Under the pieces are notes generated by a model. The model saw nothing but the letters and a program-made list of their open reading frames with translations. It ran no database searches and had not been told where the DNA came from. A stretch of DNA of 62,565 bases from Bacteroidota bacterium (lineage in GTDB: Bacteria > Bacteroidota > Bacteroidia > Chitinophagales > Saprospiraceae). Numbering within the stretch: the stretch's first letter is position 1; the number at the start of each line of letters is the position of its first letter. The position numbers and the translations under genes are program-made. Of this stretch, positions 2,812 to 62,565 are shown in pieces. Location of the stretch: assembly GCA_020160935.1 (NCBI GenBank), contig JAIUPL010000030.1:1-62565 (forward strand). The letters are read 5' to 3'.

Positions 2812-2820
2812 AAAGGGAGA

Positions 2821-2863
2821 AAAGGCAAAAAACAAGAGGCAAGGGGCAAAAGGCAAAGGGCAA
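2821..2863. repeat. ggcaa-word repeat (single arm) after uxuA
   Basis: Purine-rich words of the form AGAGGCA, AGGGGCA and AAAGGCA are strung together directly after the uxuA stop. The same vocabulary reappears in a larger two-armed copy at 33001-33201. No complementary arm is present here, so this copy alone would not form a hairpin. Confidence 0.7.
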
Positions 2864-2901
2864 TTTCTTGAACATTTAGGTGAATCAGGGGTTAAAGACC
2901 C

Positions 2902-2934
2902 TTTTGAACCCTCGCAAAAGACCTGTTACCTTTA
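2902..2934 (+). promoter_or_regulatory. Bacteroidota-type promoter of lpxK
   Basis: TTTTG (2902-2906) is followed after 20 bases by TACCTTTA (2927-2934), one mismatch from the TAnnTTTG -7 element. It predicts transcription starting just before the ATG at 2949 and argues against longer upstream starts for lpxK. Confidence 0.65.
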
Positions 2935-2948
2935 CCGCATCAACATTC

Positions 2949-4016
2949 ATGTCAGAAGATATCGTCATTCGGGTTTTGCTGTTGCCATTTTCCCTGTTGT
3001 ATGGAATAGGCATTGGGCTCCGCGACCTGCTTTACCGCGTCGGAGTGCTGCGCAGCGTCCGATTTGATATTCCAGTCATTTCGGTGGGCAATCTGTCGGT
3101 TGGCGGGGCGGGCAAATCGCCCCACATCGAATACCTGTTGGGATGGCTGGGACAATACATCGATGTAGCCGTGCTGAGCCGGGGATACGGGCGCAAAACG
3201 ATGGGGTATCGGGCTGTGAGCACGATCGATACCGCCGAACAAGCGGGAGACGAACCCTTGCAATTCAAAAGAAAATTTCCGGATGCTGCCATCAGCGTGA
3301 GCGAAAGCAGGGCGCTGGGAGTGCCGGAATTGGTGAAATACAACCCGGGCCTGCAATGCGTATTGCTCGACGATGCGTTTCAGCACTTGGCTGTCACACC
3401 GGGGCTCAATATTATGCTGACGGAATACAGCCGGCCTTTCACCCGCGATTGGCTATTGCCTTCCGGCCGGCTTCGTGAATGGCGCTACGGATACCGCCGC
3501 GCCGATGTTATTGTGGTAAGCAAATGCCCCCCGGAAATGACCAATCGCCAGCGGCGCGAAATGCTGGCAGAAATAGACCCTTATTCACACCAAAAAGTGT
3601 TCTTTTCCCGCTATGAATACGGACAACCGTATCACATACTACATCCGGAAGACAAACGCCCTTTTGATCTTCAAACCGACATGCTGCTGCTCAGCGCTAT
3701 TGCCAATACCGACTATTTGCTGGCGTACCTCGGCGAACAGGCCAAATCCGTACAAACCCTCGAGTTTGTAGACCATCATTATTTCAAGGAAGAGGACTTG
3801 ATAGAGATGAAACGTCGTTTTGAACGCATGGACTCGAAAAACAAGATCATTGTAACAACCGAAAAGGATGCTGCTCGACTGGAGTTGCACCGTGATTTTT
3901 TCCTCGAACACCGCCTTCCGGTATATGTATTACCTGTACAGGTCGCTTTTTGCGACGACGATGAAGCCGGTTTTCAGGAAGCAGTGAAGTCTTTTATGCT
4001 GGGGTTTAAAGTGTGA
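2949..4016 (+). CDS. lpxK: Tetraacyldisaccharide 4'-kinase
   Basis: This is a 355-residue inner-membrane-associated kinase of lipid A assembly that adds the 4'-phosphate to tetraacyldisaccharide-1-phosphate. An N-terminal hydrophobic helix (IVIRVLLLPFSLLYGIGIGL) precedes the family's P-loop GNLSVGGAGKSPH at about residues 46-58, then VAVLSRGYGRK and the acidic LLDDAFQH motif. Length is normal for LpxK. The chosen start sits about 15 bases after a good -7 element; a 23-residue extension to 2880 would run through that promoter. It stands alone in its transcription unit, with the convergent hydrolase gene downstream and an inverted repeat filling the gap between the two stops. Confidence 0.94.
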   Translation: MSEDIVIRVLLLPFSLLYGIGIGLRDLLYRVGVLRSVRFDIPVISVGNLSVGGAGKSPHIEYLLGWLGQYIDVAVLSRGYGRKTMGYRAVSTIDTAEQAGDEPLQFKRKFPDAAISVSESRALGVPELVKYNPGLQCVLLDDAFQHLAVTPGLNIMLTEYSRPFTRDWLLPSGRLREWRYGYRRADVIVVSKCPPEMTNRQRREMLAEIDPYSHQKVFFSRYEYGQPYHILHPEDKRPFDLQTDMLLLSAIANTDYLLAYLGEQAKSVQTLEFVDHHYFKEEDLIEMKRRFERMDSKNKIIVTTEKDAARLELHRDFFLEHRLPVYVLPVQVAFCDDDEAGFQEAVKSFMLGFKV

Positions 4017-4134
4017 AACACGGATTACGCGGAGAAAGGCGGATTGCACGGATTGGATTTGGAAGAAAGAAGAAATGGTTCCATACCAGAAATCCAATCC
4101 GTGCAATCCGCAACTATCTGTGTAATCCGTGTTC
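4015..4134. repeat. Inverted repeat filling the gap between two convergent stop codons
   Basis: Left arm 4015-4060 and right arm 4090-4134 are complementary except for a block in the middle (GGAGAAAG against AACTATCTG). The arms are built of GGATT-containing words (acGGATTACg, gcGGATTGCa, cGGATTGGATTT). The element starts inside the lpxK TGA and ends one base before the stop of the opposing hydrolase gene, so it occupies the whole intergenic space. It could act as a bidirectional terminator, although neither side has a strong T-tract. Confidence 0.8.
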
Positions 4135-4135
4135 C

Positions 4136-8273: not shown

Positions 8274-8308
8274 ACTGACGACTGTTGACTGTTGACTGAC
8301 GACTCTAC
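8274..8308 (+). repeat. In-register heptamers ACTGACG/ACTGTTG before the response regulator
   Basis: Four tandem heptamers (ACTGACG, ACTGTTG, ACTGTTG, ACTGACG) and a degenerate fifth (ACTCTAC) end four bases before the ATG at 8312. The words belong to the same family as the repeats at 26757-26909 and 58062-58110. Confidence 0.85.
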
Positions 8309-10818: not shown

Positions 10819-10865
10819 AAAAAAATCCCGGTTTTCCACGGATGCTTGAAGGATGTGCATGGGGC

Positions 10866-11206
10866 TAACTTTGCACCACATTGCAAAAACCGGTTTTTGC
10901 GTGCTCCTGTACGCATTTTCAGAATTTTGCAAATGCTCCCCAAGTTGAGATCCCACTCAAGTATATTCCCTGACAACCAAAGTGTGTTGTGTCGGCCGTG
11001 TCAAATTCGATGCCGATAACATAGATGCTATTTCAATCTCCCGCAACCTGAAAAGACAGGTTGTTATTCCCCCCCCTGTTTAATCCGCTATACTTCCTAG
11101 CCGGCATATCCGGTTTTGACCGGCCGTCGAGTTAGAATTAATTGTGCATACTATGTCAGAACAAGGCGCCCGTCGTTCGTGAGAACGGCGAGCGCCTATT
11201 TTTTTT
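10866..11206 (+). ncRNA. Candidate structured RNA between the kinase and superoxide dismutase genes
   Basis: The 488 bases between 10818 and 11307 hold no credible protein. A perfect -7 box TAACTTTG sits at 10866-10873 and a strong intrinsic terminator ends at 11206, framing a possible transcript of about 320 bases. Inside are perfect hairpins: CAACCTG/CAGGTTG at 11044-11063 and CCGGT-TTTG-ACCGG near 11112-11125, with an unusual run of eight C in between. I see no RNase P, tmRNA or SRP signature. A 6S-like RNA is one possibility I cannot test. It could also be a long leader with a premature terminator upstream of superoxide dismutase. Confidence 0.35.
11164..11206 (+). terminator. Intrinsic terminator
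   Basis: AGGCGC (11164-11169) pairs with GCGCCT (11192-11197), extended inward by CGTCGTTC against GAACGGCG around a GTGA loop, and is followed by eight T from 11199. It lies about 100 bases before the superoxide dismutase start, so it ends either a separate RNA or an attenuated leader. Confidence 0.8.
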
Positions 11207-11306
11207 ATGTGCCCGGTCAATATGATACCTGTATTCTGAACATCTTACTTTGCAGCCTGTTCTACCCACATCACAACCGTGCTACACCATTTAACAACAC
11301 AGAAAT

Positions 11307-11912: not shown

Positions 11913-12032
11913 GTTATGAGTTATAAAGTTATGAGTTATGAGTTATGAGTTATACTCACTTTGCTCTCGGCTATCCTAATGAAGAAGCCAAAAGCAAAGT
12001 GAGTATAACTCATAACTTTATAACTCATAACT
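11911..12032. repeat. Heptamer inverted repeat between sod and folE stop codons
   Basis: The left arm is built from GAGTTAT/GAGTTATAAA units and ends ACTCACTTTGCT; the right arm (11993-12032) is its complement. The left arm has two more GAGTTAT heptamers than the right, so the arms differ by exactly 14 bases. The element begins inside the sod TGA and ends at the base before the folE stop (12033-12035), filling the space between convergent genes. Confidence 0.88.
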
Positions 12033-12728
12033 CTATTCCGGCATCTTCGTTCGGATGGCCTGCAAAAACTCCTGGCGGGCAGTATCCTGCAAAAATTTTC
12101 CACTATATTCGGCTGTAATGGTACTGGCGCCGTGGTGTTCAACGCCCCGGGCCTGTACACACATGTGCCGTGCGTCGATGTAGACGGCCACATCTTCGGT
12201 GTGCAGCACTTTCTTCAGTTCTTCTGCAATTTGTACCACCAATCGTTCCTGCACCTGAGGGCGGCGAGCGAAAAAGTCGACGATGCGGTTGAGTTTCGAC
12301 AGGCCGATCACCCGGCCATTAGGAACATAGGCTACGTGTGCCACGCCGAAAATGGGCTGGAAGTGGTGCTCGCAGGTGCTTTGCACGGGGATATTGCGTT
12401 CGATGACCAGCCCGGCGTACTGGTATTTGTTTTCAAAGGTAGTAATGGCAGGTTTGTTGGCCGGGTTGAGGCCGCGAAAAATTTCATTTACATACATTTT
12501 GGCCACCCGCTGCGGCGTACCGCTGAGACTGTCGTCTTTCAGATCGAGCCCCAGGATGTGCATAATCTGGCTGAAATGCTCGCTGATCCGTTTGATTTTC
12601 TGTTCATCCGGCATTTCAAAGGCTTCCGGCCGCATAGGCGTATGGGCAGAAGTGGCAATGTGCGCATCGCCCAGGTCGTCGGTGTGGCTGAGGCCGTTGG
12701 AATGACCGTTCAAATTCAGGTGTACCAT
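12033..12728 (-). CDS. folE: GTP cyclohydrolase I
   Basis: The 231-residue protein converts GTP to dihydroneopterin triphosphate, the first step of folate and pterin synthesis. The zinc site is intact: Cys and His in VQSTCEHHFQPIFG and the second Cys in DARHMCVQARGVEHHG. The GLSKLNRIVDFFARRPQVQE stretch is typical. A variable 50-residue N-terminus precedes the conserved domain. A promoter-like TTTTG with TACTTGTT 19 bases on lies so close to ATG 12746 that ATG 12728 is the better start; 12746 and 12761 remain possible. It lies downstream of the DUF4175 gene but is separated from it by a strong terminator. Confidence 0.93.
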   Translation of the reverse strand: MVHLNLNGHSNGLSHTDDLGDAHIATSAHTPMRPEAFEMPDEQKIKRISEHFSQIMHILGLDLKDDSLSGTPQRVAKMYVNEIFRGLNPANKPAITTFENKYQYAGLVIERNIPVQSTCEHHFQPIFGVAHVAYVPNGRVIGLSKLNRIVDFFARRPQVQERLVVQIAEELKKVLHTEDVAVYIDARHMCVQARGVEHHGASTITAEYSGKFLQDTARQEFLQAIRTKMPE

Positions 12729-12822
12729 GTTTAATTGGTTTAGCATGAAGAAGGGAAACAAGTAGCGGAGAAGTTATGTTTAACAAAACGATCCTTTTAA
12801 TTAAAAAACTTTAAACAAAAAA

Positions 12823-12859
12823 AGGAGGCTGTATCCCTGTTGAAGAGATACAGCCTCCT
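12823..12859 (-). terminator. Intrinsic terminator after the DUF4175 gene
   Basis: On the minus strand a perfect 13-bp stem (12847-12859 with 12823-12835, loop 12836-12846) is followed by a T-rich run (A-run at 12816-12823 on the plus strand). It separates the DUF4175 gene from folE. Unlike most spacers here it is a conventional terminator with no word repeats. Confidence 0.92.
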
Positions 12860-12889
12860 GCTATTGTATGTTTTCTGTGAGACTTGGGT

Positions 12890-16249: not shown

Positions 16250-16461
16250 CGCGAATCTGATAGAAATGCTGAAATGTCATCTCCCAAAGTTCCTTTACCA
16301 TGGAAAAGGTTGCAAAGAGGGAGCAAAATAAACGGTATTTTAGATGAAAAGTTGGGGCTGCTGCCTTTTTAACGGCAATGTGACATTTTTGAAAACATGA
16401 AACCGCGAAAGTAAGCAAAAAAACAACGTTGCAAATTGCCCAGGGCAATGATAAACAAGGG

Positions 16462-18480: not shown

Positions 18481-18536
18481 TTCTCGCTTCTCACCTCCCA
18501 CTTCTCGCTTCTCACCTCTCACCTCTCACCTCTGCC
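18481..18536 (+). repeat. Eight in-register heptamers ending at the Fur-family start codon
   Basis: The units TTCTCGC, TTCTCAC, CTCCCAC, TTCTCGC, TTCTCAC, CTCTCAC, CTCTCAC and CTCTGCC follow one another without a slip and the next three bases are the ATG at 18537. The same vocabulary occurs at 31940-31981, 39225-39252 and 45222-45258. There is no Shine-Dalgarno, so the translation initiation region consists of repeat. Confidence 0.92.
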
Positions 18537-19061: not shown

Positions 19062-19208
19062 GATGTACGATTTCCGATTACATGATGTACGATTTCCGAT
19101 TGGATGGAAGATTTGAGAATGTTGATTGATAGCATCTCGATCAATCCTAAATCATATTTCTTCCATCCAATCGGAAATCGTACATCATGTAATCGGAAAT
19201 CGTACATC
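19062..19208. repeat. Perfect 49-bp inverted repeat exactly between two stop codons
   Basis: Left arm 19062-19110 and right arm 19160-19208 are perfect complements. Each arm contains two copies of an 18-base word starting GATGTACGATTTCCGATT. The left arm begins at the base after the Fur-family TGA (19059-19061), and the right arm ends at the base before the cyclase stop (19209-19211). The 49-base loop carries no obvious gene. Confidence 0.95.
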
Positions 19209-21113: not shown

Positions 21114-22223
21114 ATGAAAATTAAACCTTTTCAGGCCTTGTTCCCTGATTTCAGTAAAATCGGTTCGCCGGATGTGTTCTGCGAAACAGCAAAGGAGGCA
21201 TTCCCGGAATTCAGAAAGCAAGGATTATACCGGGAATTTCCACAGGCAGCCTTTTACGTCTACCAAATAGAGGACGGCCACCGCAAGCACACCGGCCTGA
21301 TTGCCCTCAACGAGGTGTCTGATTTGAAGGATGGAAAAATAAAAAAGCATGAGCACACCATCCACGTCAAGGAACGCCAGCAGATGGACTTGTTTCTGGA
21401 ATGGGGAGCCATGCTGAAGCCTGTGTTGCTCACGTATTCTTCCGTGCCCGACATCGAGCAATGGTTGCAGACATACATCCGACAGATACCTGCGTTTTTC
21501 ACCACACGGTTTCAAAAAGACGGGCAAATCCATCGGATGTGGCCTGTGAGCGCTCCTGATGACATATCATTGCTGAAAAACCTGTTTGCACAACACATAC
21601 ACGCTGCCTACATTGCAGATGGTCACCATCGTACGACATCGGTAGCACTCTTGCAGGAACAGTTTGAAGGGCAAAAGCACTCGTATGATTTCGAGCACCT
21701 GTTTTGCATTTTCATTGGCGCCGATGAACTCGATATACTCGATTTTAACCGTGTGGTGGATTTGCCGGATTCCTGGCAAGCAGAAACATTTCCCGAAAAG
21801 TTGAACGAACTCTTCGATGTCGACCCCTTGGACGAACCTTGCCGACCTGCGCACAAATATGAACTGGTACTATTTGCAGGGGGGCGATGGTACGCGCTTC
21901 GCTGGAAACAAACATTGTTGGAAAGTTTTCCGCCAGAACAGGTGCTGCTGGATGTGTCGCTGCTCAATCAATTTGTATTGCACGATCTTTTGGGTATCCA
22001 TGACGTCCGCACTGACCGACGCATCGCTTATGTAGACGGCAGCAAGGGTATTCATGGCCTTCAAAACGCCGTAGGCGCAGGTAGCAACCGCATTGGTTTT
22101 ATGTTGTTTCCGGTAAAATTGGAAGATATGATGCGCATAGCCGACACAGGTGAAAGCCTGCCCCCCAAAAGCACGTATTTTGAACCTCGTATCAGGACGG
22201 GGGTGATGGTGAAGGGGCTTTGA
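21114..22223 (+). CDS. DUF1015-family protein
   Basis: The 369-residue protein has the conserved marks of DUF1015: MKIKPFQALFPD at the start, a KKHEHTIHVKERQ block, AAYIADGHHRTTSVALLQEQ at about residues 164-183, LDFNRVVDLPD, and the C-terminal GFMLFPVKLEDMMRIADTGESLPPKSTYFEPR split by short turns. No signal peptide is present. In many Bacteroidota, members sit beside serine biosynthesis genes, but no such gene is here, so a role is not assignable. Its stop TGA lies inside the first unit of the decamer repeat that fills the gap to the aldehyde dehydrogenase gene. Confidence 0.88.
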   Translation: MKIKPFQALFPDFSKIGSPDVFCETAKEAFPEFRKQGLYREFPQAAFYVYQIEDGHRKHTGLIALNEVSDLKDGKIKKHEHTIHVKERQQMDLFLEWGAMLKPVLLTYSSVPDIEQWLQTYIRQIPAFFTTRFQKDGQIHRMWPVSAPDDISLLKNLFAQHIHAAYIADGHHRTTSVALLQEQFEGQKHSYDFEHLFCIFIGADELDILDFNRVVDLPDSWQAETFPEKLNELFDVDPLDEPCRPAHKYELVLFAGGRWYALRWKQTLLESFPPEQVLLDVSLLNQFVLHDLLGIHDVRTDRRIAYVDGSKGIHGLQNAVGAGSNRIGFMLFPVKLEDMMRIADTGESLPPKSTYFEPRIRTGVMVKGL

Positions 22224-22377
22224 AAGGGTTGATGAGGGTTGATAAAGGTTGATGAGGGTTGATATTCATCCACTCGATGAATGTGAAATACAATCCTTAC
22301 CCCGAGCAGATGATTATCAACCCTCATCAACCTTTATCAACCTCATCAACCTTTATCAACCCTCATCAACCACAAAC
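22221..22377. repeat. Decamer inverted repeat with conserved loop, copy 1
   Basis: Decamers GGTTGATGAG and GGTTGATAAA alternate from the DUF1015 stop onward; complementary CAACCCTCAT and CAACCTTTAT units fill the other arm and stop just before ATG 22378. The loop region 22257-22306 is identical to 38586-38635 at 49 of 50 bases and contains the small hairpin ATTCATC-CACTC-GATGAAT. Confidence 0.9.
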
Positions 22378-23826: not shown

Positions 23827-25779
23827 ATGCGGCTGTCTATTGTAATTGTCAACTACAACGTGCGCTATTTCCTCGAACAGGCGCTCGGTTCGGTACGGCG
23901 TGCCCTGCGCCACATCGACGCGGAAGTATGGGTGGTCGACAACAATTCGGTAGACGATTCAGTGCGCATGGTGGAAGAAAAGTTTCCGGAGGTAAAACTC
24001 ATCGTCAACCACGATAATCCAGGTTTTGCAAAAGCCAACAACCAGGCGATTCGGCAAAGCAGCGGTGAATACGTATTGCTGCTCAATCCCGACACGCTGG
24101 TGGAGGAAGATACCTTTGAAAAATGCCTGGCTTTTATGGACACACACACCGACGCCGGCGCACTGGGCTGTAAACTGATCGATGGCAGTGGCAAATTCCT
24201 GCCTGAAAGCAAACGAGGGTTCCCATCGCCCTGGGTTGCCTTTTGTAAAACTTTTGGTCTATCGGCCATTTTCCCTCGAAGCAAAACCTTCAACCGATAC
24301 TACCTGGGCTACCTCGATGCCGACCAGACCAACGAGGTGGATGTGCTGGCAGGCTGTTTTATGTTTATCCGGCGCAGCGCACTCGACCGGGCCGGACTGC
24401 TCGACGAGGCATTCTTCATGTATGGGGAAGATATAGACCTGTCGTACCGCATCATTCAGGCGGGGTACAGAAACTACTATTTCCCTGAAACAAAAATCAT
24501 TCATTACAAGGGAGAAAGCACCAAAAAAGGCAGCCTGAATTACGTACGGACGTTTTATCAGGCCATGATCATTTTTACCCAAAAACATTTTTCAGGTAGA
24601 AAAGCGGGCTTGTTTGTTTCCATGTTGCAAGCCGCCATCTGGCTCCGCGCGGGTATGACGCTGGCGAAGAATTTCTGGGATAAAATCTGGCTGCCTGCGC
24701 TGGATGCGGGCCTGATATATGCGGGGCTGGTGGTGCTAAAAAACTTCTGGGCCAATTATTACTACAAAGACCCTGAATGGTTTAAAACCAATGTCCTTTG
24801 GTTTAATTTTCCCTTGTATATCCTGATCTGGCTCGGAACCGCCTGGCTCAATGGCGGCTACGACCGACGCTATGATATCAGGCGACTGGCGCGGGGGCTG
24901 GCTTTCGGCACGGTGGTGCTCGCAGCCGTGTACGGGTTTCTCGACCTCGACTACCGGCCTTCCCGGGCACTGGTGTTGATGGGCGCCGTGTGGGCAGTGC
25001 TGGCAACGCTGGGGTTGCGCGCAGCAGCCCACTTCATTGAATTCAGAAATTTCCGATTGGGGCTTGACAAGATCCGCAACCTGCTTATCATTGGTTCCAA
25101 CTCCGAAGCGGATCGGGTTTCGGGACTGTTGAGGCAAGTGGGTATTTCACAGAATATGATCGGCGTCATTGCACCGCCTTCGGAGCCCGACCCACGTGAA
25201 TACCTGAGTGCCTTCAACCAGATGGACGAAGTGGTGCGGATTTACAGGGTCAATGAAATCATTTTTTGTTCCCGGGATATTCGCAGCCAGGATATTATGG
25301 CCTGCATGACCAGCCTTGGCCCGGGAATTTCCTATAAAATTGTGCCCGAAGAAAGCCTCAGCATTATCGGGAGCAGCAACAAGGATGAACCGGGTGAATT
25401 GTACACCATTACCATTCGTTACAACATCGCTCAGTCGGGGCAGCGCCGCAACAAACGTGTTTTTGATTTGCTGTTGTGCCTGAGTCTTATTCCAACAGCC
25501 CCATTGTGGCTTCTTTTTTCAGGCCGTCGAAAAACATGGCTAGCCAGTTGGTGGGCCGTTTTAAGCGGGCAGAAAACATGGATCGGATATGTGCCACAAG
25601 GAAATATTGCCAGCCTGCCACCCCTGAAACCAGGCGTTTTTTCACCCATAGATGATCTCCAAAACCTGCACCCCACGGCCCAAATGATTGAAAGACTTAA
25701 TTTTTTATATGCCAAAGACTGGAATGTGTGGAGAGATATGGCGCTGGCTGGAAGAATGCTATATCGGGGGGAGGGTTGA
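23827..25779 (+). CDS. GT2 glycosyltransferase fused to a membrane and Rossmann-like polyprenyl-phosphotransferase-type region
   Basis: The 650-residue protein starts with a family 2 glycosyltransferase (about 1-290): SIVIVNYNVRYFLEQAL, VVDNNSVDDS, LLLNPDTLVEEDTF with the DxD-like acidic site, and FFMYGEDIDLSYRIIQAGY, as in rhamnosyltransferase WbbL relatives. Membrane helices follow (about 295-315, 330-345, 360-400), then a Rossmann-like segment NLLIIGSNSEADRVSGLL and a tail with NKRVFDLLLCLSLIPTAPLWLLF, which resemble the CoA-binding and membrane parts of WbaP/CpsE-type sugar transferases. The catalytic sugar-phosphotransferase core is not evident. It probably builds a surface polysaccharide. 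Its TGA lies inside a decamer repeat. Confidence 0.82.
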   Translation: MRLSIVIVNYNVRYFLEQALGSVRRALRHIDAEVWVVDNNSVDDSVRMVEEKFPEVKLIVNHDNPGFAKANNQAIRQSSGEYVLLLNPDTLVEEDTFEKCLAFMDTHTDAGALGCKLIDGSGKFLPESKRGFPSPWVAFCKTFGLSAIFPRSKTFNRYYLGYLDADQTNEVDVLAGCFMFIRRSALDRAGLLDEAFFMYGEDIDLSYRIIQAGYRNYYFPETKIIHYKGESTKKGSLNYVRTFYQAMIIFTQKHFSGRKAGLFVSMLQAAIWLRAGMTLAKNFWDKIWLPALDAGLIYAGLVVLKNFWANYYYKDPEWFKTNVLWFNFPLYILIWLGTAWLNGGYDRRYDIRRLARGLAFGTVVLAAVYGFLDLDYRPSRALVLMGAVWAVLATLGLRAAAHFIEFRNFRLGLDKIRNLLIIGSNSEADRVSGLLRQVGISQNMIGVIAPPSEPDPREYLSAFNQMDEVVRIYRVNEIIFCSRDIRSQDIMACMTSLGPGISYKIVPEESLSIIGSSNKDEPGELYTITIRYNIAQSGQRRNKRVFDLLLCLSLIPTAPLWLLFSGRRKTWLASWWAVLSGQKTWIGYVPQGNIASLPPLKPGVFSPIDDLQNLHPTAQMIERLNFLYAKDWNVWRDMALAGRMLYRGEG

Positions 25780-26016
25780 AAAGTTGATGAGGGTTGATAA
25801 AAGTTGATGAGGGTTGATAAAGGTTGATGAGGGTTGATATTCATCGGCTCGATAGGGATCAATTCTTTCGTATTTCGAGTGTCCAATCATCAACCTTTAT
25901 CAACCTTTATCAACCTTTATCAACCTTTATCAACCTTTATCAACCTTTATCAACCCTAATCAACCTTTATCAACCCTCATCAACTTTTATCAACCTCATC
26001 AACCCTCATCATCAAC
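25777..26016. repeat. Decamer inverted repeat, copy 2, with expanded right arm
   Basis: The left arm uses the same GTTGATGAGG/GTTGATAAAA words as copy 1 and starts within the upstream TGA. The right arm has six exact CAACCTTTAT decamers at 25891-25950 and further variants up to the ATG at 26017. The loop starts with the family's ATTCATC but then differs from copies 1 and 3. The arms have unequal unit numbers, consistent with slippage. Confidence 0.9.
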
Positions 26017-26772
26017 ATGCTCAACGACAAACATATCTATTCCAATCTCCTAGCGGCCAAACAGCGTGGCGAAAAAAAACTTGCCATTCTGTTCGATCCC
26101 GACAAATTGCGGCTCCAGAAAATGGAACAAGCCCTCGAACTCGCTGTCGATTGCGGGGTCGATTACTTTTTCATTGGCGGGAGTCTCGTTGTCAACAACA
26201 TGCTCGATGCCGTGCTGACGCGCATTCGGGAGCAGTGTTCTATTCCCATGATACTGTTCCCGGGAAATTCATTCCAATTGAGTTACCGGGCAGATGCCAT
26301 TCTGTTTCTATCGCTCATCAGCGGCAGAAACCCCGAATTGCTAATCGGGCAGCACGTCATTTCAGCGCCGTTTTTAAAAATGTCGCCACTGGAAATCATC
26401 AGTACCGGATATATGCTCATTGATGGCGGCGTACAAACATCGGTGCAATACATGTCGAACACCTACCCTATCCCGGCACACAAAGACGATATTGCTGTCT
26501 GTACGGCGCTGGCAGGCGAAATGCTCGGACTCAAAATGATCTACCTCGACGCTGGTTCGGGCGCAAAAAATCCGGTACAGGAAAGTATGATCGAGGCCGT
26601 TTCCGGGGCTGTTTCTCTTCCTCTTATTGTAGGCGGCGGCATTCGGACACCCGAAAAAGTAGCCGCCAACCTCGACGCTGGCGCCGATGTCGTGGTGGTT
26701 GGCAATGCAGTGGAAAAGGACCCGGGTTTGATCCGGGAAATGGCTAAAGAAGTCCACAGTCGTCAGTCCTGA
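26017..26772 (+). CDS. Geranylgeranylglyceryl/heptaprenylglyceryl phosphate synthase
   Basis: The 251-residue TIM-barrel prenyltransferase joins a long isoprenoid to glycerol-1-phosphate, giving an ether-lipid precursor. Diagnostic segments are KLAILFDPDKL, DYFFIGGSLV, PMILFPGNSFQLSYRADAIL, FLSLISGRNPELLIGQHV, MIYLDAGSGAK, and PLIVGGGIRTPEKV, which together form the phosphate and prenyl sites of the bacterial group II enzymes known from Bacteroidota. The product chain length cannot be read directly. The start codon follows the decamer repeat, and the last residues (HSRQS) are encoded by CAGTC-word repeats that also provide the TGA, so the C-terminus may have been reshaped by the repeat. Confidence 0.93.
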   Translation: MLNDKHIYSNLLAAKQRGEKKLAILFDPDKLRLQKMEQALELAVDCGVDYFFIGGSLVVNNMLDAVLTRIREQCSIPMILFPGNSFQLSYRADAILFLSLISGRNPELLIGQHVISAPFLKMSPLEIISTGYMLIDGGVQTSVQYMSNTYPIPAHKDDIAVCTALAGEMLGLKMIYLDAGSGAKNPVQESMIEAVSGAVSLPLIVGGGIRTPEKVAANLDAGADVVVVGNAVEKDPGLIREMAKEVHSRQS

Positions 26773-26909
26773 ACAGTCGTCAGTCGACAGTTGTCAGTCC
26801 TCAGTCCGTAGAGTAATCCTAGATACGCTTGGTGCCTTTGCTATTCAGCCCATGAATACAAATGTGTACTCTACGGACTGAGGACTTAGGACTGTCGACT
26901 GAGGACTGA
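26757..26909. repeat. CAGTC heptamer inverted repeat overlapping the end of the GGGP synthase gene
   Basis: Units CAGTCGT, CAGTCCT, CAGTCGA, CAGTTGT, CAGTCCT and CAGTCCG run from inside the coding region through its TGA. The complementary arm (about 26864-26909) ends three bases before the stop of the LytTR regulator. One heptamer differs between the arms. The loop is about 50 bases. Confidence 0.87.
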
Positions 26910-28738: not shown

Positions 28739-28829
28739 GGTTGGAACAGGATTATCAGGATTAGAAGGACAAAAATTTATTGAATCAATCCTTCTAATCC
28801 CAATAAATCCGGATAATCCTGTTCCAACC
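28739..28829. repeat. Inverted repeat between TonB receptor and kinase genes
   Basis: The outer parts are complementary (GGTTGGAACAGGATTATC with GATAATCCTGTTCCAACC), and so are inner blocks with GGATTAGAAGG. The right arm holds an extra block of about 11 bases relative to the left. GGATTAGAAGG words also occur inside the repeat at 51175-51411. Confidence 0.8.
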
Positions 28830-28834
28830 GCTCT

Positions 28835-31939: not shown

Positions 31940-31981
31940 GAGAAGTAAGAGGCGAGAAGTGAGAAGTGAGAGGCGAGAAAT
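31940..31981 (+). repeat. Six in-register heptamers after the thioredoxin gene
   Basis: GAGAAGT, AAGAGGC, GAGAAGT, GAGAAGT, GAGAGGC and GAGAAAT follow each other in register, starting five bases after the TGA. Read on the other strand they are the same words (CTCTCAC, TTCTCAC, TTCTCGC) as at 18481-18536. Confidence 0.85.
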
Positions 31982-33000: not shown

Positions 33001-33201
33001 GAAAGAGGGAAAGGGGAAAAACAAGAGGCAAAGGGCAAGAGGCAAAAAAACAAGAGGCAAAGGGCAAGAGGCAAAGGGCAAGAGGCAAGAGGCAAAAAAA
33101 CAAGAGGCAATGGGCAAGAGGCGAATACGCACACTCCTTGCATAAGTGCCAAATTTGCTTTTTGCCTCTTGCCCTTTGCCCTTTGCCCTTTGCCTCTTGC
33201 T
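33001..33201. repeat. ggcaa heptamer inverted repeat after the DUF4290 gene
   Basis: The left arm is a run of GAGGCAA and AGGGCAA heptamers interrupted by AAAAACAA blocks. The right arm, TTGCCTC and TTGCCCT units, starts at about 33160 and ends at the DUF4290 stop codon. The left arm has roughly twice as many units as the right. The same words occur at 2821-2863. Confidence 0.87.
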
Positions 33202-33203
33202 CC

Positions 33204-33956: not shown

Positions 33957-34019
33957 AACGTCGGCAAGGTTAACGTCAGCAGGGTTTCAAACCCTGCCGA
34001 CGTTAACCTTGCCGACGTT
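33957..34019. repeat. 31-bp near-perfect palindrome upstream of DUF4290 and after glmS
   Basis: Arms 33957-33987 and 33989-34019 pair with a single mismatch around a one-base centre. Words of the GTCGGCAAGG and GTTAACGTC type repeat within each arm. It starts eight bases after the glmS stop in the minus-strand direction. Confidence 0.88.
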
Positions 34020-35868: not shown

Positions 35869-35912
35869 AGGCGAGGAGTAAGTTGGTTTGGATGTTGATG
35901 AGGGATGATGAA

Positions 35913-36046
35913 GGAGTTGAGAGGTTGAAGGGTTGAGAGGTTGAGATTGGGCTATTAAAAAAAGGAGCCCGGCAGGCGTTTGCTTAGGGCCTATCTCCAC
36001 TTTCAACCCCTCTCAACATCTCAACCCCTCTCAACCCCTCAACCTG
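35913..36046. repeat. GTTGAG-word inverted repeat between DUF4270 and glmS
   Basis: Left-arm words GTTGAGAG, GTTGAAGG and GTTGAGATT are matched by CTCTCAAC and CCCTCAAC words at 36001-36046. The loop contains a GGAGCCC/GGGCC-type pairing. The repeat starts a few bases after the DUF4270 stop in the direction of transcription. Related words end the window at 62511-62558. Confidence 0.8.
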
Positions 36047-38324: not shown

Positions 38325-38468
38325 GTTATCAGATAACCAGACTTGATTGGTGTGTAGAAATCCCTGTAAGCATAGTCGCCGATTTTACATAAACGCTGCG
38401 GTGTGTGTAAAAAATTTGTCGGACGACTTTGGGCTTTTGACAAAACCTTTGTTCTGACAAAGCCGGTG

Positions 38469-38476: not shown

Positions 38477-38549
38477 TAAAAAATTGCGGGTTATTTTTGT
38501 ATCCACATGGCAGGATAAAATTATTGGGGGCGGATTTAACTAAATTGGG

Positions 38550-38720
38550 TTATAAAGGTTGATGAGGGTTGATAAGGGTTGATAAGGTTGATATTCATCC
38601 ACTCGATGAATGTGAAATACAATCCTTACCTCGAGCCGTCATTCATCAACCCTCATCAACCCTCATCAACCCTCATCAACCTTTATCAACCTTTATCAAC
38701 CTTTATCAACCCTATCAACC
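38550..38720. repeat. Decamer inverted repeat with conserved loop, copy 3
   Basis: GGTTGATGAG, GGTTGATAAG and related decamers lead into the loop 38586-38635, which matches copy 1 (22257-22306) at 49 of 50 bases. The right arm has CAACCCTCAT and CAACCTTTAT units and ends four bases before the stop of the DHFR gene (38725-38727). Confidence 0.9.
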
Positions 38721-38724
38721 CCAA

Positions 38725-39216: not shown

Positions 39217-39224
39217 AAACAGAG

Positions 39225-39252
39225 GTGAGAGGTGAGAGACGAGAAGTGAGAG
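39225..39252 (-). repeat. CTCTCAC heptamers upstream of the DHFR start
   Basis: Four heptamers (plus strand GTGAGAG, GTGAGAG, ACGAGAA, GTGAGAG) end eight bases before the ATG at 39216. Read with the gene they are CTCTCAC, TTCTCGT, CTCTCAC, CTCTCAC followed by CTCTG, nearly the same order as at 18509-18534 before the Fur-family start. Confidence 0.85.
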
Positions 39253-39319
39253 GTGTGGGCTGCCCGCGGGTTTTAAAACAGTTTCTTACCTTCGCGGTTT
39301 CGACAAACAAAGGTACGAC

Positions 39320-42327: not shown

Positions 42328-42450
42328 CATGAGTCATCCCGAATTTTTGGGAGACAAGCATTCAGGATGACTCATGTTAAAAGCGACGTAATATACCCGA
42401 TGCCCGATTCAAGATGCATGACCTTTCATACTTCTTCAATCGGGCGTCGG
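42328..42450. repeat. Two hairpins filling the gap between convergent ricT and M56 genes
   Basis: ATGAGTCATCC/GGATGACTCAT (about 42329-42377) starts directly after the ricT TAA. A second stem pairs 42397-42412 (CCGATGCCCGATT) with 42434-42450 (AATCGGGCGTCGG) with two mismatches and ends 10 bases before the M56 stop. Confidence 0.8.
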
Positions 42451-42460
42451 ATCAATCCTG

Positions 42461-45098: not shown

Positions 45099-45128
45099 TG
45101 GGGAATTGTCGAATAGGTAGGGCGTTGT

Positions 45129-45188
45129 GCGTATCGAATACGTGCGTATCAAATACATGCGTATCGAATACGTAGGGCGTTGCCCTAC
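45129..45188. repeat. Three 15-bp quasi-palindromic repeats and a hairpin
   Basis: GCGTATCGAATACGT (45129-45143), GCGTATCAAATACAT (45144-45158) and GCGTATCGAATACGT (45159-45173) are tandem 15-mers, each nearly self-complementary. A perfect hairpin GTAGGGC-GTT-GCCCTAC (45172-45188) follows. GTAGGGCGTTG also occurs just before the array at 45118. Confidence 0.9.
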
Positions 45189-45221
45189 GCTATTGGAGAC
45201 GCCCTTTCAGGGCTATGCCGT

Positions 45222-45258
45222 GATTCTCACCCTCTCACCTCTCACCTCTCTCACCTCT
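45222..45258 (-). repeat. GTGAGAG heptamers overlapping the end of the kynurenine monooxygenase gene
   Basis: Read with the gene, GTGAGAG-type units start inside its last codons, supply the TGA and continue past it. The words are those of 18481-18536, 31940-31981 and 39225-39252. Confidence 0.8.
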
Positions 45259-48577: not shown

Positions 48578-49477
48578 ATGGCAAGAACTCCTAAAGAAAA
48601 ACGCTACCAAGCCATCGTCAACGCCGGGCTTAAACGTTTGTACGAACAACTGGGCTATCTTCAGAGCGATGTTCTCGGAAAACTTCGTACGCTTCGGCAC
48701 GAAATTTCATCGGCCTCTCTTTCGAATATCAAGAACGACAAGACCGTGGGTGTCGCTACGCTCGAAACAGCAGCCAAAGGCGTTTTATTGCTCATGGAGC
48801 AGGAACTTGACATGGCTTATGATGATACTACCAGCGATTTTATTTCCAGAAACACCCCTGAATGGAAGCCGATTATAGTGCCCGAGAAACAGGACCCTGC
48901 CAACCAAGGCATCAAAGTGTATGCAGAAGGCAGGGCTACGGTGGCCCAAAAAACGGCATTTTTTGCCGACGCAAAACAGGAGTTAGTGGAAGTTGGTATT
49001 CGCCTCAACTCCTTTTCTACGTATTTCATTTCGCAAAGTGACAGTGCGTATAAACAGCACATTCTCAATTTACTGCAAAGAGGTGTACACATAAAGGGAT
49101 ACCTGCTCGATCCGGATTGCGAACAGGCGCGCATATATTTTGAAGACCGGGCCGGAACACTGGATACCGAAAACAGATCATTGGATAAAATACGGGAAGT
49201 GATGGCGGATTTGCGCCATTTGTGTGCACAGTTCAAGTTGATGAACCTCCCCGGCACGTTTGAAATTTACGTTTACCAACATATTCCTTACAGCCTGTAC
49301 CTGATTGTAGATGGCGATTCGGATGACGGTAAAATGATGGTTTCGCCATATTTGTATGGCATTCGAAGAGCCAATTGTCCGGTATTGGAGTTTTCCAAAA
49401 AGGACCAGGAAACCATGTACAACCGCTACCTGGAAGCATATAAGGCTTTTACGCAAAGTGCCCGCCTGCTCGTGTAG
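48578..49477 (+). CDS. Putative HTH protein with DUF5919-like C-terminal domain
   Basis: The 299-residue protein has an N-terminal region (about 20-80) that looks like a divergent XRE-type helix-turn-helix: ERLYEQLGYLQSDVLGKL-like text, then ISSASLSNIKNDKTVGVATLETAAKGV. The C-terminal part (about 130-290) contains QHILNLLQRGVHIKGYLLDPDCEQARIYF and FEIYVYQHIPYSLYLIVDGD, which resemble the phospholipase-D-like DUF5919 domain found behind HTH domains. I recognise this only moderately well. There is no signal peptide. The last 27 bases of the gene are copied in inverted orientation 80 bases downstream as part of an 85-bp inverted repeat. Confidence 0.6.
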   Translation: MARTPKEKRYQAIVNAGLKRLYEQLGYLQSDVLGKLRTLRHEISSASLSNIKNDKTVGVATLETAAKGVLLLMEQELDMAYDDTTSDFISRNTPEWKPIIVPEKQDPANQGIKVYAEGRATVAQKTAFFADAKQELVEVGIRLNSFSTYFISQSDSAYKQHILNLLQRGVHIKGYLLDPDCEQARIYFEDRAGTLDTENRSLDKIREVMADLRHLCAQFKLMNLPGTFEIYVYQHIPYSLYLIVDGDSDDGKMMVSPYLYGIRRANCPVLEFSKKDQETMYNRYLEAYKAFTQSARLLV

Positions 49478-49641
49478 TTATCAGTTAATGGTTATTGGTT
49501 ATCAGGGTGATAGGGGGCCATTTGCACAATTGTTTCGCATCTTAATAAAGAATAACAAACAATTGTGCAAATGGCCCCCTATCACCCTGATAACCAATAA
49601 CCATTAACTGATAACTACACGAGCAGGCGGGCACTTTGCGT
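49451..49641. repeat. 85-bp perfect inverted repeat that includes the end of a gene
   Basis: Left arm 49451-49535 and right arm 49557-49641 are perfect complements around a 21-base loop. The first 27 bases of the left arm are the 3' end and stop codon of the upstream coding sequence. After the stop come the words TTATCAG, TTAATGG, TTATTGG and TTATCAG, shared with 51175-51411 and 62442-62480. Confidence 0.97.
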
Positions 49642-50351: not shown

Positions 50352-50362
50352 TGTGGAATACA

Positions 50363-50397
50363 GGCTCCTGTGCATGGTGTACAGGAGCCATTTTTAT
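50363..50397 (+). terminator. Intrinsic terminator of the small secreted protein gene
   Basis: GGCTCCTGT (50363-50371) pairs perfectly with ACAGGAGCC (50381-50389) around a nine-base loop, followed by ATTTTTATTTG. Confidence 0.93.
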
Positions 50398-50412
50398 TTG
50401 TAGGATAGACTT

Positions 50413-51162: not shown

Positions 51163-51174
51163 CCCGCAAAGATA

Positions 51175-51411
51175 ATCGGTTATCAGTTATTGGTTATCAG
51201 GGTGGGTAGAACCAGGATTTGTGCGATTTAAAGGATTAGAAGAATTCCCAATGAGATGTCGAAATTCCAATGATTAATTCAAGTGAATGAGGTGGTAATC
51301 TTTCAGCCTGATTTTTTTAATTTCGACATCCCGTTGGGAATTCTTCTAATCCTTTAAATCGCACAAATCCTGGTTCAACTCACCCCTGATAACCAATAAC
51401 TGATAACCGAT
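51175..51411. repeat. Long inverted repeat after the giant protein gene
   Basis: Arms of about 92 bases (51175-51266 and 51319-51411) are complementary with a few mismatches and a small indel. The outer part is the GTTATC-word family, the inner part contains GGATTAGAAG words. Read with the giant gene the element begins at its TAG: TAGTTATCGGTTATCAG, as at 49475 and 62442. It ends 12 bases before the GT2 start. Confidence 0.92.
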
Positions 51412-51413
51412 AA

Positions 51414-58061: not shown

Positions 58062-58110
58062 CTGACGACTGTAGACTGACGACTGCTGACTGTAGACTGA
58101 CCACTGCTGC
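58062..58110 (+). repeat. Seven in-register CTG heptamers in the ftcD promoter
   Basis: CTGACGA, CTGTAGA, CTGACGA, CTGCTGA, CTGTAGA, CTGACCA and CTGCTGC follow one another without a slip and end one base before the TATCTTTG box. They are related to the heptamers at 8274-8308 and 26757-26909. Confidence 0.92.
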
Positions 58111-59833: not shown

Positions 59834-59848
59834 TGATGTATTGCTACT

Positions 59849-59961: not shown

Positions 59962-60029
59962 TCTTTCTAACACCTTGACAACCAGGGCGAAGACTTCTTT
60001 TCTTGTACGTGCATCTTATCTTCGCGCTT

Positions 60030-62444
60030 ATGTCTCGCAAGAATAAATACGTCTGTATACACGGCCACTTTTACCAGCCGCCGCGTGAAAATGCCTGGCT
60101 GGAAGTAGTAGAACGCCAGGAGTCGGCCCGCCCTTTTCACGACTGGAATACGCGCATCAATTTTGAATGCTACGCCCCGAATGCCTCGGCCCGTATTCTC
60201 GACGACAAAGGCTGGATTGTGAAAATCCGCAACAACTACAACCGCATTTCCTGGAACTTCGGGCCTACCCTGTTGTCGTGGTTACAAGAAAACGACCCGG
60301 ATGCCTACCACCTGCTGCAAACAGCCGACCATCGGAGCATGGAACGCTTCGGCGGACACGGTTCGGCACTGGCACAGGTGCACAGCCACCTCATCATGCC
60401 GCTCTGCAACTACCGCGACAAGGTAACGCAGGTAACCTGGGGCATCCGCGATTTCGAGCATCGCTTCGGGCGCTATCCGGAAGGTATCTGGCTGGCTGAA
60501 ACGGCTGCCGATACACAAACACTGGAAGTGCTGGCTTCACACGGCATCCAGTTTACCATCCTGGCGCCCCGACAAGCGAAGGCTATCCGGTCAATGGGCA
60601 GCGGCGATGAATGGCAAGGTGTAAGTGCCGACACCATCGATACCCGACAGCCCTACTGGTGTGTGCTTCCAAGCGGCCGCCGTATCGCACTGTTTTTTTA
60701 CCACGGCGGTATTGCACAGGAGGTGGCGTTCAACGGGCTGCTCAACAGCGGCCGAAATTTTGCCAACCGGCTGAGTGGTATTTTCGACAATAGCGACGAA
60801 CCGCAACTGGCACATATCGCTACAGATGGCGAAAGTTACGGTCACCACCACCGCTTCGGCGAAATGGCCCTGGCCGACTGCCTCAACCTCATCGAGGACA
60901 ACGAAACGGCTACCCTGACCAATTACGGACAGTTTCTCGAGATGTTTCCGCCCAAATGGGAAGTGCAAATTCACGAAAACTCTTCCTGGAGTTGTGTGCA
61001 TGGTGTGGAGCGCTGGAGGGCCGATTGCGGCTGCAATTCAGGCCGTGCAGGCTGGCATCAGCGCTGGCGAAAACCCCTGCGCGAAACACTCGACTGGCTG
61101 CGCGACCGACTGGCGCCTCTGTATGAAAAGGAGGCCGCCCGATTTCTGCAAGACCCCTGGGCTGCCCGCAACGACTACATTGACGTTACGCTCAATCGCT
61201 CTGATGCCGTTGTAAATGGTTTTCTGAAAAAACATGCCCGCCGCGAACTCAGCCATCTCGAACAGGTGGTCACCCTGCGCCTGCTCGAAATGCAGCGCCA
61301 TGCAGTGCTTATGTACACCAGTTGCGGCTGGTTTTTTGATGAAATTTCGGGTATTGAAACCAATCAGATTTTGCAGTATGCCCTGCGTGCCATGGACTAT
61401 GCGAACGATGCTGCGGGTCTCGATTTGTACCCGGAATTTGTACGGCGACTGAGCGAAGCGCCCAGCAATGTTTTCCCCAACGGCGCCGCCAGTTTTTTAC
61501 AAAATGTGGTGCCCACCCGCGTTACGCTCGAACGGGTAGCCATGCATTTTGCCGTAGCCTCCCTTTTTGAAGAACATCCGGAAGGGCTCAACCTGTTTAA
61601 TTATACCGCGGCGGTCGAGTTTTTTGAAAAAATAGAAGCAGGAACGCCTCAGTTTGCCGCCGGCAGGCTGGTGATTCGCTCCCGCCTGAGCCGCGCCGAA
61701 CGCCCTTTTTGTTTTGCCGTGTTGTACCTCGGTCAGCAACACATCATCGGCAACATCAGCGGCACGATGAACAAAACGACCTTCGAGGAAATGTTTGCCC
61801 GTACCGGCAAGGCATTTCACAATGCCAACCTGGGCGAAGTGATCGGTACCTTGCAGGAATATTTCGGTCCCGAAAAATTTACCCTGTCGAGCCTTTTTGC
61901 CGATGAAAAAATAAAAATCATCAGTGGCATCACCGACCACAGCCTTTCTGTGGCCGAGTCGAGTTTCCGGAATGTATTCAACGATAATTATCAGTTGATG
62001 ACCGGGCTTCAGGAGGCCGGATTGCCCTTGCCGGATGCCTGGCGAAATATTGCATCGTATGTTCTTAATTCCGATCTGCTCGATTTTTTCAGAAATGACC
62101 AGCCGACGGAAACACGTGTGCTGAATCGTATTGCCGGCGACTTGAAACAGTGGGGCATCAAACTCAATGATGAGGAAGCGATTCGCCACGCCATCAGTGA
62201 GCGGGTGTACCGGGAAATTGAAAAAATCAACCTCGGCGAATCTTCCGTTTCGAGGGTGGAATGGCTCAATCGCGTGCTCACCGCTGTGGCCGATATGGGT
62301 ATCAAACCCAGTATCTGGCGCAGCCAAAACGTGTTTTACCTGTTTACCAAAGGATATAGAAAAGGGCAATGGGTATTTGTCAATGAAGGCTGGAAAAAGG
62401 CGTTCGAACAATTGGCGCAGTTGCTGAAGGTCAGGCTGGGGTAG
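60030..62444 (+). CDS. GH57-type DUF3536 glycoside hydrolase
   Basis: The 804-residue protein opens with the GH57 start YVCIHGHFYQPPRENAWLEVVE, has NCHAxR-like FGPTLLSWLQENDPDAYHLL, GIWLAETAADTQTLEVLASHGIQFTILAP with the likely nucleophile Glu, and HIATDGESYGHHHRFGEMALA with the acid/base Asp. A DUF3536 helical domain makes up the second half. Such proteins are probably cytosolic alpha-glucan-active enzymes, for example amylases or branching enzymes; specificity is unknown. ATG 60030 fits the family start better than the TTG at 60003. The TAG stop is the first triplet of a GTTATC repeat. Confidence 0.9.
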   Translation: MSRKNKYVCIHGHFYQPPRENAWLEVVERQESARPFHDWNTRINFECYAPNASARILDDKGWIVKIRNNYNRISWNFGPTLLSWLQENDPDAYHLLQTADHRSMERFGGHGSALAQVHSHLIMPLCNYRDKVTQVTWGIRDFEHRFGRYPEGIWLAETAADTQTLEVLASHGIQFTILAPRQAKAIRSMGSGDEWQGVSADTIDTRQPYWCVLPSGRRIALFFYHGGIAQEVAFNGLLNSGRNFANRLSGIFDNSDEPQLAHIATDGESYGHHHRFGEMALADCLNLIEDNETATLTNYGQFLEMFPPKWEVQIHENSSWSCVHGVERWRADCGCNSGRAGWHQRWRKPLRETLDWLRDRLAPLYEKEAARFLQDPWAARNDYIDVTLNRSDAVVNGFLKKHARRELSHLEQVVTLRLLEMQRHAVLMYTSCGWFFDEISGIETNQILQYALRAMDYANDAAGLDLYPEFVRRLSEAPSNVFPNGAASFLQNVVPTRVTLERVAMHFAVASLFEEHPEGLNLFNYTAAVEFFEKIEAGTPQFAAGRLVIRSRLSRAERPFCFAVLYLGQQHIIGNISGTMNKTTFEEMFARTGKAFHNANLGEVIGTLQEYFGPEKFTLSSLFADEKIKIISGITDHSLSVAESSFRNVFNDNYQLMTGLQEAGLPLPDAWRNIASYVLNSDLLDFFRNDQPTETRVLNRIAGDLKQWGIKLNDEEAIRHAISERVYREIEKINLGESSVSRVEWLNRVLTAVADMGIKPSIWRSQNVFYLFTKGYRKGQWVFVNEGWKKAFEQLAQLLKVRLG

Positions 62445-62480
62445 TTATCGGTTATCTGTTATTGGTTATCAGGGAGGGGT
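62442..62480 (+). repeat. GTTATC-word repeat starting in the GH57 stop codon
   Basis: TAGTTATCGGTTATCTG and further GTTATTGGTTATCAGGG words begin at the TAG. The same text follows the stops at 49475 and 51416. A second arm, if any, lies beyond the window. Confidence 0.85.
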
Positions 62481-62510
62481 AAGGGTGGATGGGTGTTTCA
62501 GGCCAGGGAT

Positions 62511-62558
62511 TAGTTGAGGGGTTGAGTAGTTGAGGGGTTGAGTAGTTGAATGGTTGAG
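62511..62558 (+). repeat. Three tandem 16-mers at the window end
   Basis: TAGTTGAGGGGTTGAG occurs twice exactly (62511-62526, 62527-62542) and once with two changes (62543-62558). The words match those at 35913-36046. The element is cut by the window edge. Confidence 0.9.
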
Positions 62559-62565
62559 ATTCAGC

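Follow-up and report, generated by a model that had tools for sequence, protein, structure and literature searches.

The window analysed here is a 62,565-nt stretch of DNA, C4:1-62565, from a Saprospiraceae genome (G000; 5.84 Mb in 51 contigs, listed completeness 97.9%), and its intergenic spacers carry several families of dispersed hairpin-forming elements (Table 1). A Pfam run on 20 window proteins bore out the names given in an initial annotation, which had been made from the sequence alone, for UxuA, LpxK, Sod, folE (GTP cyclohydrolase I), Fur, the cyclase, DUF1015, the GT gene, GGGP synthase (PcrB), LytTR, thioredoxin, DUF4290, glmS (SIS/GATase), DUF4270, folA (DHFR) and GH57; the hydrolase gave just a weak Chlorophyllase match, and the protein at 48578-49474 gave none. 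The GGGP synthase shares 97% identity with its counterpart from a Saprospiraceae metagenome-assembled genome (MAG; JAEUUT010000030.1) and 70-88% with the 19 other relatives listed, whose titles mostly read Saprospiraceae, Chitinophagales or Bacteroidetes. One contig (L091) with a Saprospiraceae-like GGGP synthase is filed under a MAG titled Thermoanaerobaculia and was probably mis-binned.

Tandem arrays, for which periods of 6-12, 14, 16, 20 and 21 were retained, cover 1225 of 7095 non-coding bases of the window and 591 of 55470 coding bases. Their periods here are 7, 14 and 21, and also 8 and 10, so that direct tandem heptamers between genes, a feature of STRR-type arrays, are present. An array was found in 17 of the 34 spacers of at least 40 nt, and an array or a stem in 20. 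Stop-anchored repeats are present as the initial annotation had said, although its statement that they fill nearly all spacers was therefore too strong. Eleven window stems score at least 25, one of which (32773-32909) lacks tandem words.

Rates given below refer, unless the whole genome is named, to a sample comprising the window and 1.2 Mb more of G000 (together 1.26 Mb, 22% of the genome), in which genes were called with our own hexamer model and start positions are approximate. The words are enriched beyond the window and scarce within genes, the two points by which the initial annotation had proposed to judge them. For 12-mer counts the sample was partitioned into 162 kb of non-coding and 1082 kb of coding DNA; despite the nearly sevenfold larger amount of coding DNA, the top 70 non-coding 12-mers, nearly all of them fragments of array words, have 32-80 non-coding copies and 0-12 coding copies. 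Examples are GTTATGAGTTAT (80 non-coding, 1 coding), GATGAGGGTTGA (79 and 5), GTGAGAGAGTGA (67 and 11), GGCAAGGGGCAA (65 and 0), ATAACCAATAAC (64 and 0) and AGTCCTGAGTCC (55 and 7). Genome-wide, GGTTGATGAGGGTTGATAA with at most one mismatch occurs 310 times in G000, and its reversed-read control not at all.

Folding into arms, which the initial annotation had listed among several traits of these genome-wide, gene-end-tied word families, is their chief feature. Each N-free spacer of 40-1200 nt was aligned to its own reverse complement and called positive at a score of at least 40, which gave 161 of 676 spacers, 0 of 676 shuffled spacers (a control that preserves base composition only) and 0 of 676 length-matched coding stretches. 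Scanned without reference to gene calls, 1.258 Mb yielded 178 hairpins, or 14.1 per 100 kb, which extrapolates to roughly 800 long palindromes in the G000 genome. Stem statistics rest on the 178 elements with a stem score of at least 25 among 191 more loosely collected ones. The median stem is 57 nt, the median loop 24 nt and the median arm identity 0.96, with 35 stems perfect; the 5′ arm is richer in G than in C in 136 stems.

Typically a short loop is flanked by an inner core (such as GTAGAGTACACC or ATTCATCCGCTCG) with tandem words outside it, and core and words return as reverse complements on the opposite side. In 134 stems the 5′ arm contains one or more of 12 word patterns at least twice. 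Arms of a single family include AGTCCTR (29), GTGAGAG (17), GTTGATRA (15), CACGGATT (14), TTATGAG (13), GTTATY (12), CGCAGA (10) and smaller families. Two word families share one arm in six cases, and 44 arms fit none of the 12 patterns; word arrays thus predominate among the hairpin types without being the only one. Beneath different outer words the core GTAGAGTACACC is found again, at times as a close variant. Among the 163 stems with a relative of the same family, the best match to the left arm is its own right arm in 130, with seven ties. In a congener, G006, a unit of about 44 nt is doubled in both arms of one hairpin.

Placement is biased towards gene ends: elements scoring at least 40 occupy 67 of 113 convergent, 80 of 399 co-directional and 14 of 164 divergent spacers. 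The 97 co-directional elements that score at least 30 lie at a median of 3 nt from the upstream stop and 50 nt from the downstream start. At a score of at least 40, 59 of 81 co-directional elements fall within 10 nt past the stop and 5 of 81 within 10 nt of a start; in 2000 runs with uniform placement, 21.6 on average and never more than 31 came that close to the stop. The stop codon itself lies inside the stem at 77 of 235 gene ends. The stop anchoring described in the initial annotation is thus a property of the whole sample; its account of where the repeats begin applies to many of them, while several single-arm arrays stand instead beside starts or in divergent spacers (those beginning at 8274, 18481, 39221 and 58062).

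Table 1. Word arrays and hairpins in the window (window coordinates)
Element	Position	Arms and pairing	Setting
Hairpin, CACGGATT/ACGCGG words	4017..4133	4017-4060 and 4090-4133	Convergent LpxK / hydrolase
Hairpin, TTATGAG words and inner core	11923..12036	11923-11972 and 11986-12036	Convergent Sod / GTP cyclohydrolase I
Hairpin, GATTTCC/GATGTAC words	19062..19208	19062-19111 and 19159-19208, identical 50/50	Convergent Fur / cyclase
Hairpin, GTTGATGAGG words around a core common to other loci	22220..22371		Between DUF1015 gene and next gene
Hairpin, GTTGATGAGG words	25772..26013		GT2 gene to GGGP synthase (PcrB family)
Hairpin, CAGTC words and GTAGAGTA core	26751..26908	26774-26815 and 26867-26908	Convergent GGGP synthase / LytTR
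Weaker hairpin, GGATTATCAGGATTAG words	28748..28830		Between two minus-strand genes
GGCAARR arrays, inverted	33003..33203	33051-33096 and 33154-33199	Convergent thioredoxin-like / DUF4290
AACGTCGGCAAGGTT hairpin	33957..34019	30/31 paired	GlmS stop side
GTTGAGAGG words, inverted	35896..36044		DUF4270 stop; GTTGATGAGG words at this site in G028
Hairpin, GTTGATGAGG words and core	38548..38721		DHFR (folA) stop
Hairpin, GTTATC/GTTATTG words and inner core	49451..49641	85-nt arms, 100% complementary	Stop of gene ending at 49477 lies inside arm
Composite hairpin, GTTATC outside, AGGATTAGAAGAATT inside	51175..51411		Stop of 2096-aa gene
GGCAARR array	2811..2863	Single arm	Directly at UxuA stop
GACTGNN array	8274..8305	Single arm	Ahead of start codon
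TTCTCAC array	18481..18533	Single arm	Ahead of Fur start
GAGAAGT array	31940..31979	Single arm	Just past stop (31934)
AGAGGTG array	39221..39255	Single arm	Divergent spacer
TCTCACC array	45225..45258	Single arm	Over stop of minus-strand gene ending at 45235
GACTGTA array	58062..58109	Single arm	Upstream of gene at 58148
GTTATC array, then GTTGAG array	62444..62558	Window ends here, partner arm beyond view	After GH57 stop

The last entry of Table 1 resembles the left half of the composite GTTATC/GTTGAG hairpins found elsewhere. Other repeats occur beside the word-array hairpins. At 32711-32956 lies a dispersed element of another kind, about 240 bp long; it contains a long palindrome (32773-32909) but no tandem words, and it has at least 11 further matches in the congener G028. 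At 45127-45225 of the window, and at about 1583-1677 of locus L208, GCGTATCGAATAC tandem words are followed by a AGGGCGTTGCCC palindrome; this family has 11 core copies, on both strands, in the sample. Elsewhere in G000, at C51:50455 and at C43:21327 and 32023 (loci L031 and L010), GATTTGACAACTTTTCGAAAGTTGTCAAATC-type palindromes form short arrays with their centre in both orientations, and at C51:50455 the palindromes are separated by repeated spacers of about 25 nt. The spacer 10819-11306 is conserved in G000, G028, G006 and G031 while neighbouring spacers turn over; with its TTGCAAAAACCGGTTTTTGC-like and GGCGCTCGTTGTTCG hairpins and the T run after the GGCGCTCGTTGTTCG hairpin, it is possibly a structured RNA. 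A 1119-aa minus-strand gene at 12890-16249 has internal 21-nt repeats and an extreme AT skew (−0.44 in 12501-15000).

The elements are patchily distributed among relatives, for which we use G-numbers for the congeners of G000. Of 36 congeners, 11 carry the sequence GTTGATGAGGGTTGATRA, and none of 23 relatives belonging to the order's other genera does; among 295 genomes drawn from the class it occurs only in the window's own genome. By samples that are small for most relatives and do not amount to a census, G028 (39 hairpins in 381 kb), G006 (16 in 74 kb), G031 (8 in 33 kb) and G016 (8 in 31 kb) are hairpin-rich; G014 (2 in 20 kb), G010 (1 in 19 kb), and G005 and G032 (1 in 16 kb each) are intermediate; and G007 (1 in 60 kb), G009 (1 in 80 kb), G022 (0 in 40 kb), G013 (0 in 32 kb) and G018 (0 in 36 kb) are among the hairpin-poor. 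Eight genomes from other families of the order gave no hairpin in about 179 kb.

We placed 78 orthologous spacer pairs between G000 and its congeners (33 with G028, 20 with G006, 15 with G031, seven with G007 and three with G009). Arms were compared over the stems only of 10 hand-picked same-family elements among the 33 G028 spacers. Within a genome the two arms agree at 434 of 459 positions in G000 and 370 of 394 in G028 (94-95%), a level inflated because the stems were selected for self-match, and between the genomes they agree at 289 of 353 and 296 of 354 (82-84%). Even so, old arms that evolve independently should leave some mismatches common to both genomes; in the columns counted, 38 differ between the genomes identically in both arms, one is an arm mismatch that both genomes share, 30 are single changes and seven are others. 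Gap columns common to both arms number 146, many of which simply mark stem ends, against eight others.

Sister species also carry differing elements at the same sites, many of which look overwritten, some by another word family. The spacer at 22224-22377 holds a hairpin in each of four genomes, built from GTTGATGAGG words in G000, TTTTGGTG words in G028 and GGTTTGATGG words in G006 and G031. At 11913-12032 the TTATGAG words are common to G000 and G028, with two other families in G006 and G031, and at 51163-51413 G028 has the AGTCC family in place of GTTATC. At 8 of 12 chosen loci the best G000 match of the G028 element is an element at some other site, not the orthologue, and the G006 and G031 elements are closer to a non-orthologous G000 element in 12 of 12 rows, in a test that favours the other loci by pitting the best of about 177 elements against one orthologue; between G028 and G000 the orthologue is clearly closer at 19062, 28726 and 33927, with a tie at 38325. 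The loop at 19062-19208 is inverted between these two genomes. By eye, three spacers (16250-16447, 42328-42460 and 50352-50412) appear filled in G028 and empty in G000; at the cut-off of 40, 9 of the 33 G028 spacers seem filled in one genome only, the rest of them being threshold effects or weaker hairpins.

Some words are clade-specific dialects. Allowing at most one mismatch, RAGTCCTRAGTCCTRAGTC occurs 809 times in G000, 985 times in G028 and once across the other 40 genomes of the genus; its backward control is high (132 in G000, 161 in G028) because the pattern is self-similar. The word AAGTSCGAAGTSCGAAGTS is absent from G000 and occurs twice in G028, 186 times in G006, 240 in G016, 40 in G031 and 68 in G014, with four copies in G010 and one each in G063 and G064. 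At one locus, the spacer behind the GGGP synthase, the site is kept while its words vary with the clade: G000, G028, G006 and G031 each have an element there, with similar cores but with CAGTC/AGTCCTR words in the first two and AGTSCGA words in the others.

An explanation has to cover the abundance of the elements, their mirror symmetry, their bias to gene ends, the differing elements at the same sites and the clade-specific words. Shared, dialect-like words call for exchange between loci, and mirrored differences call for either arm-to-arm copying or inheritance from a mirrored source. Fold-back or a template switch at the stem, with the words as landing sites, would meet both needs. The best explanation, to which we give an even chance, is accordingly that dispersed hairpin elements are renewed by fold-back or template-switch copying at the level of DNA. 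Such a process would continually bring the two arms into agreement: a 3′ end in one arm would switch to the other arm as template, by fold-back synthesis or arm-to-arm conversion, or else to the same words at a different locus, and the second arm would be re-made from the first while slippage alters the number of words. Elements would persist mainly behind stop codons because spacer DNA there would tolerate them. Ordinary replication with frequent template switching may be enough, with no special enzyme required. The suggestion in the initial annotation that the words could be substrates of an unknown copying system would agree with the mirroring of arms, the overwriting of sites and the word dialects alike, the process itself being inferred. 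A bolder version, which we put forward tentatively and rate as unlikely, is a bacterial counterpart of satellite DNA, in which trans-acting fold-back or template-switch copying would impose a genome-wide word dialect on hundreds of gene-end hairpins and use the first arm to rebuild the second, with words, and not whole elements, as the units that replicate.

Several points weigh against renewal by arm copying, beyond the lean of both the stem selection and the locus-exchange test in its favour. The order of identities was reversed (0.685 and 0.691 within genomes, 0.766 and 0.790 between them) in a rougher comparison whose arms took in loops and non-elements. Words and hairpins can part: GTTGATGAGG-type hits number 150 in G007 and 53 in G009, yet each has one sampled hairpin. 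No intermediate, enzyme or within-species polymorphism was seen in our material. Co-directional spacers show a slight lean to G-U over A-C mismatches (114 against 93), and much of the turnover is explained, with no need for arm copying, if palindromes are transposed ready-made.

Such transposition would involve REPIN- or MITE-like non-autonomous elements moved whole by a Y1 (HUH) or other transposase, with mirrored differences between loci inherited from the source copies, and we regard it as unlikely though deserving real weight. Placement matches the published REP signature (PMC3733652; this and the other papers cited here are drawn on in excerpt), three spacers look filled in G028 alone, and a Bacteroidetes subclass of such transposase genes is reported to be flanked by atypical hairpins that have copies elsewhere (PMC6006769). 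Y1_Tnp matches occur in the hairpin-rich genomes (two each in G000, G028 and G016, three in G006, six in G031) but also in congeners with few or no sampled hairpins (six in G012, four in G021, three in G022, two each in G007 and G009), so Y1 transposases do not discriminate between the two. The strong Y1 gene of G000, on contig C42, is preceded by a palindrome and by ACATACGAAT-like words in a direct array. This layout resembles window 45127-45225, and because it stands just upstream of that gene the GCGTATCGAATAC/AGGGCGTTGCCC family may belong to the C42 transposase; no main hairpin word family lies within 4 kb of the gene. Inverted repeats are present; as to the target-site duplication of MITEs, filled and empty sites have diverged too far from each other for one to be read. 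An unpaired GTAG foot was not seen, and arm length and word number vary. Reverse transcription, another candidate, is unsupported: RVT_1 has four matches in G000 and none in the drafts of the hairpin-rich G028, G006, G031 and G016, which argues against it. The initial annotation had proposed a search for a RAYT-like, reverse-transcriptase or primase gene restricted to word-bearing genomes; Y1 transposases do not track the elements in this way.

Selection on RNA, by which strong 3′ hairpins that stabilise mRNA or terminate transcription would be kept paired by compensatory mutation, seems distinctly improbable to us. It would suit the concentration of elements in convergent spacers and their median distance of 2-3 nt from stops. 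RNA selection alone predicts that G-U is tolerated and A-C is not; the co-directional lean to G-U is not significant (p = 0.16) and convergent spacers have 90 G-U against 99 A-C mismatches, so there is no clear RNA signature. It would also leave the shared words at hundreds of loci, the exchange of families at one site and the dialects unexplained. Canonical intrinsic terminators, the form in which the initial annotation's idea of 3′-end formation could be checked, are unsupported: just 19 of 235 transcribed exits have at least five T in the 8 nt after the stem, and terminator-like hairpins are, if anything, slightly rarer at gene ends beside an element (31 of 219; 12 when shuffled) than at those without one (79 of 406; 14 when shuffled). 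Rfam 15 gave no match in the window at the gathering score. Local slippage alone, with 7-10-mers expanding independently in each spacer and no exchange between loci, would account for tandem arrays that vary in copy number and are sometimes single-armed; it is very improbable, as the same words and inner cores recur at many loci, which already tells against it, and the inverted arms have a median identity of 0.96. Hardly credible is an artefact of assembly or amplification (fold-back chimeras): the 20 named GGGP synthase relatives are all metagenome-assembled, but the hairpins are confined to spacers and recur, with differing sequences, at orthologous spacers of separately assembled MAGs. Loss of SbcCD as a cause of palindrome tolerance was rejected because hairpin-rich relatives keep a homologue. 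G028 has an SbcD-like (390 aa) and SbcC-like (801 aa) pair, and the SbcD homologue is whole in G031, in two pieces on two contigs in G006 and interrupted by one stop codon within the match in G016; in G000 neither TIGR00619 nor the 390-aa G028 protein found a match.

Cyanobacterial STRR heptamers, to which the initial annotation had likened the words, are direct repeats, and we know of no STRR-type array with an inverted partner array. The likeness holds for intergenic tandem heptamers and their patchy distribution and fails for the inverted arms, although some single-arm arrays exist here. Quasipalindrome correction is known as a sporadic process of small extent; in the present case it would have to work on long palindromes of many words, and on hundreds of them. 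Such correction proceeds by template switching (sequence-directed mutagenesis) and perfects imperfect palindromes by taking one arm as the template for the other (PMC4060949). TAACTGA arrays are intergenic, patchy tandem heptamers too, found in some Bacteroidetes and with no known mechanism in the excerpt, but they are direct repeats that in BOGUAY stand mostly upstream of starts (PMC4679880), unlike inverted arrays around a core mostly behind stops. The BrickBuilt minisatellite-MITE of Porphyromonas gingivalis likewise joins intergenic tandem repeats with inverted ends in a member of the Bacteroidetes, but has a 23-nt direct repeat, small inverted ends and 19 copies in one strain (PMC4596501). 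Element families with tandem heptamers in Geobacter metallireducens have four or five heptamers, 49 copies in one family and sites also within genes, with no mirror arms reported in the excerpt (PMC2700814). The numerous long perfect inverted repeats of Nematomorpha genomes are mitochondrial and lie within genes, and word arrays go unmentioned in the excerpt (PMC6649704).

Closest are the REP, REPIN and BIME elements, GTAG- or CGTC-tagged (PMC3733652, PMC3116915), which are also numerous intergenic palindromes with inverted doublets forming hairpins. REPs lie downstream of genes, convergent and unidirectional, often within 20 bp, and sometimes supply the stop codon (PMC3733652); the elements described here share this position behind stops and between convergent genes, and are rare in divergent spacers. 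They differ in their median 57-nt stems, mostly variable tandem words, many unrelated families at once and clade word dialects. The REP unit of 20-40 bp with an unpaired GTAG or CGTC foot was not found by inspection of some families, made with no REP model, and the GTAG of the AGTCC core sits within the paired stem; as for a cognate RAYT, the one Y1 gene inspected, that on C42, has one other palindrome and its direct word array upstream. Because tag and unit size do not agree, we do not class the elements as a REP family member. In literature excluding subscription sources, judged mostly by titles and the openings of abstracts, we found no published description of such elements, and no paper combining Saprospiraceae with inverted repeats or with palindromic intergenic repeats. 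They are real and genome-wide, a variant of the intergenic palindrome that is REP/REPIN-like in place and abundance and unlike in build, diversity and dialect.

Long palindromes are generally held to be unstable in bacteria. In this genus two species whose DNA, where aligned here, mostly shows 83-89% identity carry different ones at fixed gene-end sites. The finding may bear on the patchy heptamer arrays of other phyla, for which the excerpt of PMC4679880 states no mechanism. If arm copying is the cause, strain comparisons in the genus would reveal palindrome copying straight from the sequence.

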